Part shown: piece after piece, positions 14,280-28,540 of the stretch
Position numbering within the stretch: position 1 is the stretch's first letter
Layout: the number at the start of each line of letters is the position of its first letter
IMG/VR virus record: IMGVR_UViG_3300025645_000295
Location: 1-31,125 of that record
DNA length: 31,125 bases
Direction: 5' to 3' (one strand)
From: a virus
Notes under the pieces: model-generated
What the model saw: the letters and a program-made list of their open reading frames with translations, nothing else
The model's database searches: none
What the model was told of the DNA's origin: nothing
Position numbers and translations under genes: made by a program

Positions 14280-14603
14280 ATGAAAGACTACCAAAAAGAG
14301 TTTGAGGCGTTTATTGATTCGGATGAGTTTATAAATGATGAAGGTTGGAACGGAACTACCAACGGAAACAAAACAAGCTACTCATTCAAAGGCGGTGATG
14401 TTGTTATTGAGGTTGAAGAAAACCCGACAGAAAATTTGCTAAATGCTCTTAATTCTGCAATGGCAATACTACGATCTAAACGACTATCAAAGTTGCGGAG
14501 TACATTACAATCAGATTTTAGTATTGAGGCTTTAGAACGCAAGAAATCAATCGACAACGCTAAGTTAAAGATTGGAACATCAATAGGTTTACCAATAAGA
14601 TAA
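14280..14603 (+). CDS. Protein of unknown function (107 aa)
   Basis: The product is acidic at the N-terminus (MKDYQKEFEAFIDSDEFIND) with a beta segment (TSYSFKGGDVVIEVEENPTE) and a basic helical C-terminus (AMAILRSKRLSKLRSTLQSD, then LERKKSIDNAKLKIG). It has its own promoter box and the short leader type. It lies between terL and a 58-residue leaderless ORF. No family is recognised, and nothing indicates whether it is a virion or accessory protein. Confidence 0.65.
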   Translation: MKDYQKEFEAFIDSDEFINDEGWNGTTNGNKTSYSFKGGDVVIEVEENPTENLLNALNSAMAILRSKRLSKLRSTLQSDFSIEALERKKSIDNAKLKIGTSIGLPIR

Positions 14604-14794: not shown

Positions 14795-15757
14795 ATGAAC
14801 ATACATTTAACGACCTCAATGAGAGGCGGCGTAAACTATCACCGAATGGTTACGCCTCATGTAAACCTATTAAAAAAATACCCAGAGTTTAAAGTAGCCT
14901 ACTCCGTTGATGATCGTTCTTGGATTAAATTAGATTTGAGCAAGATTAATATCTTGGTGTTTACTCGTATGATTTCTTTGGAGGGTTTAAATTACAAAGG
15001 CGTTAACTATTCGCTTGAGGAAATTGTAAAGAAATACAAAAAGTTAGGTATTAAATTTGTTGTTGATATAGATGATTATTGGATTTTAGACCGAAATAAT
15101 CCGATGTATAAAAGTTTTGATAAACATTATCAGAAGCAAGTAAGATTATCGTTAAGGCTTGCCGACTTAGTTATAACAACAAACAAAAGGTTAGCCGATA
15201 GGATTAGACCGATCAACAAAAACATTGAAATAATACCTAATTGCATCGACAAAACTCATAATCAATGGGATTACTCACCACTACCAAAGAATACAAAGTT
15301 TGGTTATTTAGGTGCAACATCTCACAAGGAGGATGTTAATCTTATGGGCGTTGATTGGTCAGATTATGATGCAACTGCATTTGTTGAGATGTACAAGCAA
15401 AACGGGTTTAAGATTAAGAAAGGAAAAGATGTTTATCAATATGGAAAACTTTACAACAATATAAGCGTTTCACTTGCTCCAATAGTTAAGAGCGTATTCA
15501 ATAGTTGCAAATCAAATTTAAAGGTAATAGAGGCAGCCGCAAAAGGTCGAATGATTATATGCAGCGATGAACACCCGTACAAAGATTTTGAATCTGTTTT
15601 ATATGCCACAGACTGGAAAAGTCAGGTTGATTTATTAAAAGACTTTACACCCGATGCGATGCGTATTGTAGCCAAAAGGTTAAGCGATGAGGTTAATGAT
15701 AAATATAATTTAGATACTTGGACAGATTACAGGGCTAAAATCTACAAAAGTTTGTAA
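14795..15757 (+). CDS. Glycosyltransferase, GT4-like (GT-B fold)
   Basis: The 320-residue protein begins MNIHLTTSMRGGVNYHRMVT, the substrate-binding start of GT-B enzymes. It has VVDIDDYWILDR (residues 89-100), LADLVITTNKRLADRI, IEIIPNCID (145-152) and a C-terminal donor-binding region, SVSLAPIVKSVFNSCKSNLK followed by VIEAAAKGRMIICSDEHPY (about 224-262) with K239, S240 and E246 in the usual places. Such enzymes transfer a sugar from a nucleotide donor. In phages they glycosylate virion proteins, host surface glycans or modified DNA bases. Its place between terminase and capsid genes favours a virion or host-surface target; DNA glycosylation is a further possibility given the enzyme at 27782. 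The minus-strand terminator follows. Confidence 0.82.
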   Translation: MNIHLTTSMRGGVNYHRMVTPHVNLLKKYPEFKVAYSVDDRSWIKLDLSKINILVFTRMISLEGLNYKGVNYSLEEIVKKYKKLGIKFVVDIDDYWILDRNNPMYKSFDKHYQKQVRLSLRLADLVITTNKRLADRIRPINKNIEIIPNCIDKTHNQWDYSPLPKNTKFGYLGATSHKEDVNLMGVDWSDYDATAFVEMYKQNGFKIKKGKDVYQYGKLYNNISVSLAPIVKSVFNSCKSNLKVIEAAAKGRMIICSDEHPYKDFESVLYATDWKSQVDLLKDFTPDAMRIVAKRLSDEVNDKYNLDTWTDYRAKIYKSL

Positions 15758-27430: not shown

Positions 27431-27532
27431 ATGAATGTCACAGATTCAAAATTATTTTTTTCTACCAAAGCCTTTAAGAGTGCCGCTGTGACCGGTATTT
27501 TTAGAGGCTTTTTTTATTTTAAAATATTATGA
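27431..27532 (+). CDS. Mini-ORF (33 aa) or small RNA with long hairpin
   Basis: ATG 27431 to TGA 27530-27532 encodes MNVTDSKLFFSTKAFKSAAV and ends RGFFYFKIL. The promoter spacing is that of the leaderless genes, and the stop overlaps ATG 27529 (ATGA), which argues for translation. Yet the 3' half is a 19-base-pair hairpin followed by seven T, which argues for a terminated small RNA of about 85 bases. It could be both: a leader peptide with an attenuator controlling the four-gene block downstream. The rest of the 27364-27528 gap shows no other feature. Confidence 0.4.
   Translation: MNVTDSKLFFSTKAFKSAAVTGIFRGFFYFKIL
27467..27515 (+). terminator. Long-stem intrinsic terminator / attenuator
   Basis: 27467-27485 pairs with 27493-27511 over 19 consecutive positions (four G-T pairs) with a seven-base loop CTGTGAC, followed by T up to 27515. 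It lies 14 bases before the next gene, so read-through or attenuation would control 27529-29260. Confidence 0.75.
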
Positions 27533-27792
27533 ATATATTAAAACAAGCAAATAGTATAGTTAACGATCGTTCTGAAGAAAAGGAAAGGGAGTATGGCCCT
27601 TTTAGCAATAGTATGTCAAAAGCATCTTTAATTGCTTCAGAGCTTACGGGTTTAAATATTAGCACCGAACAATTTTATTTGTGCATGGTGGCTTTAAAAA
27701 TGAGCCGAATGGCTTACAATTTAAAAGAAGATACATTAATGGACTGCGCTGCTTATATTGGGGCATTAAATAATTTTAAAAATGGAAAATAA
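27529..27792 (+). CDS. DUF6378-like protein
   Basis: The 87-residue protein contains DRSEEKEREYGPFSNSMSKA and ISTEQFYLCMVALKMSRMAY, then LMDCAAYIGALNNF. The pattern R-x(7)-YG-x-x-x-N, a helix, a K-x-x-R element and D-x-x-AYIG-x-L is that of the small helical DUF6378 family, found in phages near nucleotide metabolism genes. The function is unknown; Asp/Glu helices would be compatible with a MazG-like nucleotide-binding role. The stop overlaps the thymidylate synthase-like start by 11 bases. Confidence 0.68.
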   Translation: MNILKQANSIVNDRSEEKEREYGPFSNSMSKASLIASELTGLNISTEQFYLCMVALKMSRMAYNLKEDTLMDCAAYIGALNNFKNGK

Positions 27793-28540
27793 ACTAGAAC
27801 TACAATATAAAAAAATATTACAAGATTGTTTAAAATATGGAGTTTTAACAAGTAATAGAACAAACGTTGATACTTTAAAAACTTTTTCAAAAAAAATAGA
27901 GCTTAATTTAACTGAGGGGTTTCCTATTGTTACGGGTAAAAAAATATTTTTTAAAAAAGCCCTAGCTGAATTTAATTGGATATTTGAAGGAAAGACTGAC
28001 ATTAAATTTTTAAACGATAATAAAATTTTTTGGTGGGACAAGTTTGCTGAAAAAGGTATTGTACCTAAAAGCTATGGCCACCAGCTAAGAAATTTTGGAG
28101 GGAGTTTTGATCAAATAGAATATGTAAAAAATGAGTTGCTTACTAATTCAAGGCGCGGAGTTATTTCTTTTTGGAACCCTTTAGATTTAAAAGATCAAAA
28201 ACTACCGTGTTGCTATACAACTGCTGCTTTTGTAAAAGAAAACGACAAATTAAACATGTCATTAATGTTTAGAAGCTCAGATTTATTTTTAGGATTGCCT
28301 TACGATATTATTTTTGCAGCACTTTTGCTAAATAAAATGGCAGATTTAACTAATCTTATACCTTTTAAGCTGTCTTTAGAACTTTGTGATGCACATCTTT
28401 ATACTAGTCACATTAAGGGCGTTAAACAATATTTAAAACAACAAACATTTAAACTTCCTAATATTATTTATAAAAAAAATGGAATTTGTATATTAGAAAA
28501 TTATAATCATCAAAACTATATTAAAGCAGAAATGCACTAA
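27782..28540 (+). CDS. Thymidylate synthase-superfamily enzyme, probably dCMP-specific
   Basis: The 252-residue protein aligns with thymidylate synthase over its whole length: SNRTNVDTLKTF (R26), AEFNWIFEG (E63), KSYGHQLRNF, SRRGVISFWNPLDLKDQKLP, the catalytic-loop LPCCYTTAAF (C144 nucleophile), FRSSDLFLGLPYDI and CDAHLYTSH (H205, Y207). Three canonical residues differ: Asn in the GLPFNI element is D175, the His after the nucleophile is Y145, and Gln before RSSD is F163. Asp at the Asn position is the mark of dCMP hydroxymethylase (T4 gp42), and Asn-to-Asp in thymidylate synthase favours dCMP. The enzyme is therefore probably a dCMP hydroxymethylase or methylase. A divergent thymidylate synthase is the alternative. 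Confidence 0.8.
   Translation: MENKLELQYKKILQDCLKYGVLTSNRTNVDTLKTFSKKIELNLTEGFPIVTGKKIFFKKALAEFNWIFEGKTDIKFLNDNKIFWWDKFAEKGIVPKSYGHQLRNFGGSFDQIEYVKNELLTNSRRGVISFWNPLDLKDQKLPCCYTTAAFVKENDKLNMSLMFRSSDLFLGLPYDIIFAALLLNKMADLTNLIPFKLSLELCDAHLYTSHIKGVKQYLKQQTFKLPNIIYKKNGICILENYNHQNYIKAEMH

Follow-up and report, generated by a model that had tools for sequence, protein, structure and literature searches.

Thymidylate synthase (TS) carrying the replacement N177D is switched from dUMP to dCMP and yields 5-methyl-dCMP (PMC8670742, citing Liu and Santi 1992 and Hardy and Nalivaika 1992). Positions 177 and 147 are also the two that best separate the TS homologues of cytosine-modified phage contigs from those of unmodified contigs, and pyrophosphohydrolases of the PRA-PH type co-occur with TS on the cytosine-modified contigs (PMC8670742). 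The hydroxymethylase signature comprises Asp (or Glu) at position -3 from the catalytic Cys, Ser (or Thr) two residues before the Tyr, and absence of the C-terminal tail, and the T4 variant D145N yields no 5-hydroxymethyl-dCMP (PMC6400193). In the CMP hydroxymethylases MilA and BcmA, Lys133' and Ala176 replace Arg and Ser (PMC5175136). Among phages, S144 has DNA that only restriction enzymes with sites made up of A and T will cut, and its cytosine may be modified, with no gene found (PMC7432712), while AXL1 is a relative of the 5-methylcytosine phage Xp12 and shows the same restriction behaviour (PMC9206674) and was used here in place of Xp12 (MT664984).

Here we analyse a TS-family gene in a phage record of 31,125 bases, the whole of which is referred to below as the window. 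We propose, with a rough probability of 0.6, that this gene encodes a phage deoxycytidylate C5-methylase of the TS family, carried in a mobile three-gene cassette.

A thymidylate synthase homologue altered at three base-facing positions

A second contig, L002 (IMGVR_UViG_3300022164_000004), bridges the end of the record to its start across a 429-base gap at 99.98-100% identity, which makes the record a circularly permuted, nearly full-length version of a genome of about 31.55 kb. Its recombination and replication genes encode RecT, a DUF3127 single-strand-binding protein, a replication-initiator-like protein, a DnaB-like protein and a VRR-NUC protein, and its structural and lysis genes encode terminase, portal, protease, tape measure and endolysin. 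Because DUF3127 matches only Bacteroides among 14 control genomes, the host is probably a member of the Bacteroidota. The features of the locus are as follows.

27529-27792 (+): DUF6378 protein of 87 aa, first cassette gene, overlapping the TS start (PF19905, 1.2e-11)
27782-28540 (+): TS-family enzyme whose pyrimidine-recognition residue is Asp; predicted C5-methylase acting on dCMP (PF00303, E 2.6e-57; ThyA residue mapping; model Z 34)
28202-28216 (+): L141-P142-C143-C144-Y145, equivalent to E. coli L143-A144-P145-C146-H147; nucleophile C144, Tyr for His147 (alignment; PMC6400193)
28268-28270 (+): F163, equivalent to E. coli Q165 (residue alignment)
28304-28306 (+): GAT codon of D175, equivalent to E. 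coli N177, predicted dCMP determinant (residue alignment; PMC8670742, PMC6400193)
28551-28862 (+): MazG/PRA-PH-type NTP pyrophosphohydrolase of 103 aa, third cassette gene (Pfam MazG 1.3e-7, PRA-PH 1.1e-4)

The central gene is an open reading frame of 252 codons whose product matches the Pfam thymidylate synthase family over its full length (residues 8-251). An AlphaFold model (pLDDT 92.7) has E. coli TS as its best PDB matches, with an rmsd of 1.4 Å over 247 residues that include the C-terminal tail, which aligns up to E. coli residue 263. Profile and model thus agree with the original prediction of a TS homologue. That prediction had named both E. coli ThyA and T4 gp42 for superposition; the former was recovered, and the latter is absent among the 50 structure matches listed for the model, which is no sign of its exclusion.

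Alignment with E. coli ThyA paired C144 with C146, Y145 with H147, F163 with Q165, R164 with R166, S165 with S167, D167 with D169, D175 with N177, H205 with H207 and Y207 with Y209, exactly as had been claimed for these nine residues. In E. coli numbering, which is used from here on for positions in the enzyme family, the catalytic set of the superfamily is retained (Cys, Arg126/127, Arg166, Asp169, His207, Tyr209, Glu58 and Tyr94), and the substitutions are Asn177 to Asp, His147 to Tyr and Gln165 to Phe. Residue 165 is likewise hydrophobic in T4 gp42 (Met), AXL1 (Leu) and S144 (Met). Several points had escaped the original prediction: L141 of the window enzyme is the unchanged TS Leu143, three residues before the nucleophilic Cys; C143 takes the place of Pro145; W83 is replaced by Phe, with W80 unchanged; the C-terminal IKA tail is present as IKAEMH, its final residues being EMH where TS has PVAI; and the gene belongs to a three-gene cassette. 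Judged by its residues, the lid differs in part from that of TS, in the change of W83 to Phe and in the EMH end.

The altered enzyme defines a conserved viral clade

Searches of viral contigs yielded a clade of 26 distinct sequences, the window's own included, the other members of which are 41-59% identical to the window enzyme. The clade is monophyletic (SH-aLRT 99), and its variants have not previously been described, the enzyme type itself being already known. The nearest public record is uncultured phage MedDCM-OCT-S28-C10, at 49-50% identity. D177, F165, C145, W79 and W80 are found in 26/26 members, so that the canonical Asn177 of dUMP thymidylate synthase is missing from the window enzyme and from the whole clade; position 147 is Tyr, or Phe in two members, and position 143 is Leu, or Ile in three. 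Between the window enzyme and that of a sister phage (L013), dN is 0.34 and dS 2.51, a dN/dS of about 0.14, and the clade enzyme is under purifying selection. Two further contigs carry the window gene with 0 differences over its 759 bases. Together, the identical contigs, the 26/26 conservation and the dN/dS rule out a sequencing error or a lone mutation. A cellular origin was likewise set aside, since no relative came up when 84,980 prokaryote species genomes were scanned with motif patterns; these were specific, and distant relatives could escape them. On a quick tree with long branches for T4 gp42 and CBA120, parsimony placed four changes at D177, and a single origin of this residue may still apply.

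Two damaged copies were seen. On a lone short contig, L003:4970-5727 is a copy of the window TS frameshifted by one deleted base, probably an assembly or read error. In L190 (contig of L137, G059:C1:7252-7971), four in-frame stops interrupt the aligned part of a TS-like stretch, which is a decayed or frameshifted TS gene.

The gene belongs to a mobile three-gene cassette

In the window the TS gene lies between genes for a DUF6378 protein and a MazG-type protein, the latter with an EExxE...ExxD motif (EEAGE...EIID). Counted from gene maps, DUF6378 is directly upstream of TS in 21/26 distinct clade loci and MazG is beside or near TS in 25/26. Bacteroidota-type phage loci without TS were collected through their DUF3127 gene, and none of these 32 had DUF6378 or MazG (0/32 for each), as against 9/12 and 12/12, respectively, of the TS-bearing contigs (Fisher p 3e-7 and 5e-11); as the latter contigs were found through TS, this contrast measures co-occurrence and not frequency. 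An empty site was identified in the relative L132. Its similarity to contig L020 breaks off at L020 position 12,693 and picks up again at 14,533, the two flanks lying 51 bases apart in L132. The block absent from L132 comprises DUF6378, TS and MazG, and runs from the start codon of the first gene to slightly beyond the stop codon of the third. The three genes form one mobile cassette that moves as a unit.

Many clade members (e.g. L022:2833-3651) have a longer MazG of about 245-270 aa, whose extra N-terminal part is weakly T5orf172/GIY-YIG-like. The PHROGs matched by the window DUF6378 protein are labelled 'phosphofructokinase' (phrog_474), which is questionable given its length of 87 aa and its link with nucleotide genes.

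Proposed mechanism

In the mechanism that we propose, C6 of dCMP would be attacked by Cys144, and Asp175, replacing the uracil-reading Asn, would bind N3/N4 of cytosine and aid protonation of N3. The one-carbon unit would come from 5,10-methylene-tetrahydrofolate, and the methylene intermediate would be reduced to methyl by the folate hydride, giving 5-methyl-dCMP and dihydrofolate; hydride reduction is expected because the enzyme retains the TS-type Leu141 and the C-terminal lid and has no counterpart of the Asp that activates water in the T4 hydroxymethylase. MazG, by analogy with T4 gp56, would hydrolyse dCTP to dCMP, feeding the enzyme and lowering the competing dCTP, and the DUF6378 protein would have some accessory role. 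Phosphorylation to the triphosphate would then fall to host kinases and its incorporation to the host polymerase, with some or all of the cytosine in the phage ending up as 5-methylcytosine; bulk incorporation into virion DNA is doubtful.

The predicted product is 5-methyl-dCMP

The residues at positions 143, 147, 165 and 177 were compared across TS types. The enzymes in the second line are ones that we take to be dUMP hydroxymethylases.

Thymidylate synthase: L143, H147, Q165, N177
CBA120, PaMx11, SPO1-like Goe16 and ctUhy936 (relatives of thymidine-hypermodified phages): D143, N147, N165, N177
T4 gp42: D143, T147, M165, D177
Xp12 relatives AXL1 and RDJL2/3: N143, P147, L/I165, D177
S144/ZCSE2: L143, Y147, M165, D177
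Window clade: L/I143, Y/F147, F165, D177

In this residue comparison, 177 follows the base (U or C) and 143 follows hydroxymethylation, by known or inferred chemistry. Over the TS homologues (L072, L074-L076), Asp at 143 and Asn or Asp at 177 vary independently and make a simple two-site predictor of methyl or hydroxymethyl and of U or C. The window enzyme has the methylase combination of Asp177, TS-type Leu143 and a lid, and lacks the set of the dUMP hydroxymethylases of SPO1/ViI/M6 type (Asn177, Asp143, Asn147, Asn165). Its product, we infer, is 5-methyl-dCMP.

A T4 gp42-like dCMP hydroxymethylase, in which water rather than hydride reaches the methylene intermediate, would instead give 5-hydroxymethyl-dCMP, which the phage's GT4-type glycosyltransferase (14795-15757) might glycosylate in DNA. 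D177 and a hydrophobic residue 165 are common to the window enzyme and T4 gp42, the C-terminus and W83 are changed, and the phage does encode a GT-B/GT4 enzyme. Against this, the residue at -3 from the catalytic Cys is Leu (Ile in three clade members) and not Asp or Glu, a Lys and not Ser or Thr lies two residues before the proton-abstracting Tyr, and the C-terminal tail is present. The T4 likeness put forward in the original prediction is therefore supported for D177 but not beyond it, the published signature (PMC6400193) being missing. The glycosyltransferase gene sits in the structural block, between terminase and head genes, and among 36 records compared occurs only in the window phage and its sister. 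Its model (pLDDT 88.6) matches GT4 enzymes at Z 24.7 (a sucrose-phosphate synthase) to 20.0 among 50 entries listed, none of which is the T4 DNA glucosyltransferase, and TS accompanies this glycosyltransferase in 0/19 other phage contigs, many of them fragments. T4-type glucosylation was set aside on the GT4 match and the lack of co-occurrence with TS, and for the latter reason the enzyme has no place in our mechanism; as evidence for hydroxymethylation it is weak. In phi92-like phages, relatives of the gene bear the annotation glycosyltransferase or 'putative disaccharide synthase'. We consider a hydroxymethylase unlikely. As the T4 signature is missing and the TS tail is retained, methylation is probably the reaction, and of the two products originally suggested, 5-methyl- and 5-hydroxymethyl-dCMP, it is the methyl form that Leu143 and the tail favour.

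Fate of the predicted product in the phage

A C5-methylase of this kind would leave 5-methyl-dCMP to be phosphorylated and incorporated. No match to the thymidylate-kinase or dCMP-deaminase families was found in the window or in its Bacteroidota-type relatives; as S144 has an annotated kinase that the kinase model likewise failed to detect, other kinase families are possible. Nor was a DNA polymerase recognised in the almost complete genome. The product would thus rely on host kinases, which may not accept 5-methyl-dCMP.

Tetramer counts revealed strong avoidance of C-containing palindromes in the window, with CCGG observed 3 times against 43 expected, GGCC 5 against 49, CTAG 10 against 60 and CGCG 7 against 30. 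Freedom from C-palindrome avoidance, a population-genetic proxy for restriction-proof cytosine and not its definition, is therefore not seen in the window. Related Bacteroidota-type phages also avoid C-containing palindromes, with or without the cassette, whereas in T4, AXL1 and S144, whose hosts differ, CCGG and GGCC are unavoided (observed/expected 0.8-1.2). Among the Bacteroidota-type phages, the median observed/expected ratio for C-palindromes was 0.71 in TS-bearing and 0.65 in TS-less genomes (p 0.36), and that for CCGG plus GGCC was 0.31 and 0.22, respectively (p 0.19); in the empty-site pair, the C-palindrome ratio was 0.63 for L020 and 0.67 for L132. The cassette leaves no detectable relaxation of site avoidance, perhaps because it was gained recently, because substitution is partial, because its target is something else than classical restriction, or because the product is not incorporated at all. 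The claim that the phage carries modified cytosine is thus partly contradicted, there being no recognisable kinase and C-palindromes being avoided as in cassette-less relatives, and we put the chance of modified cytosine in virion DNA a little below even.

The same data bear on the possibility that dCMP is methylated without the product replacing genomic cytosine, either because 5-methyl-dCMP serves the nucleotide pool, for example through conversion to dTMP by a host dCMP deaminase in a uracil-free route, or because partial substitution is aimed elsewhere than at classical restriction. This is consistent with the unrelaxed site avoidance, with the lack of kinase and polymerase, and with the dCMP deaminase gene adjoining TS in the marine relatives S28-C10 and L009. 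However, the Bacteroidota-type members are without dCMP deaminase, C-modified phages carry dCMP deaminases too (PMC8670742; S144, AXL1), and a recently gained cassette could leave the avoidance in place as a relic; we regard non-replacement as quite unlikely. A broader version, in which the mobile cassette of many small Bacteroidota phages makes 5-methyl-dCMP with neither a phage kinase or polymerase nor restriction-proof cytosine replacement, and is there for partial methylation that counters defences other than restriction, or for reaching thymidylate by a uracil-free route, seems fairly unlikely. If our main reading is right, it carries a paradox, namely why cassette phages still avoid C-containing restriction sites.

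Substrate specificity

Asp177 and a changed residue 147 occupy the positions tied to cytosine-modified phage DNA (PMC8670742), and the window enzyme is for this reason very probably specific for dCMP, as originally predicted; the altered residue 165 and the similar signature of S144 lend further support. CMP was ruled out, since the Lys and Ala of the MilA/BcmA type are lacking and R125 and S165 (R127 and S167 in E. coli numbering) are kept, which points to a deoxyribonucleotide rather than CMP as the substrate (PMC5175136). That D177 is merely tolerated in an ordinary TS still converting dUMP to dTMP is very unlikely, for although fold, nucleophile and lid are all TS-like and some other phage TS, e.g. 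that of Lak-B1, have D177 while keeping H147 and Q165, three base-facing positions are altered jointly and fixed in 26/26 relatives, and N177D is known to exchange dUMP for dCMP (PMC8670742).

Comparison with known systems

Phages KL1 and AH2 (PMC3483164) proved irrelevant as a precedent, their enzyme being a site-specific DNA methylase. T4 gp42 shares with the window enzyme D177 (its Asp179), the hydrophobic residue 165 (Met) and the catalytic Cys, and differs in D145, in S94-x-Y96 and in its truncated C-terminus, with about 23% identity over 111 residues. The Xp12-type enzymes (AXL1, RDJL3) likewise have D177 and a hydrophobic residue 165, with a PRA-PH pyrophosphohydrolase beside the AXL1 gene, whereas they have N143, P147, a long insert and no IKA tail, fall in another clade and come from phages encoding DHFR and dCMP deaminase. 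The MetaGPA TS homologues (PMC8670742) resemble the window enzyme in Asp177, an altered residue 147 and a co-occurring PRA-PH/MazG-type pyrophosphohydrolase; those contigs were assigned by modified-DNA enrichment, whereas cytosine modification in the window phage is a prediction, and this phage has no carbamoyltransferase.

The TS of Salmonella phage S144 (L077:5001-5885), identical to that of ZCSE2 (L066), shares with the window enzyme L143, D177, Y147, a hydrophobic residue at 165 (Met) and an adjoining NTP pyrophosphohydrolase, whose gene is directly upstream of TS. It differs in being only 25% identical and on a separate branch of the tree, and in that the S144 phage also has dCMP deaminase, DHFR, an annotated thymidylate kinase and a DNA polymerase. 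Some 60 phage records carry homologues of the S144 TS at at least 60% identity; an enzyme of the S144 type is also present in the cultivated Escherichia phage CF2 (KY608966), which grows on K-12 and whose TS is 73% identical to that of S144. The S144 TS gene is a candidate for the source of cytosine-type restriction resistance in this phage, and our reading, if right, would propose the responsible gene for S144 and its relatives.

Within the clade, the ThyA of S28-C10 (Votkovvirus; BAQ94086.1) has 49% identity to the window enzyme and an identical active-site signature, whereas the genes around it encode MazG, a P-loop protein annotated as dTMP kinase and a dCMP deaminase, and DUF6378 is absent. 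The engineered dCMP methylases N229D (L. casei) and N177D (E. coli) share with the window enzyme the TS scaffold, Leu143, the C-terminal lid and Asp at the recognition site; the window enzyme differs in being natural and in having positions 147 and 165 changed too. If our reading is right, it would define a cassette whose three genes move together and a two-position rule, in which 143 sets methyl or hydroxymethyl and 177 sets uracil or cytosine, and the clade would represent a large group of natural dCMP methylases on the TS scaffold, the counterpart of the engineered N177D enzyme.
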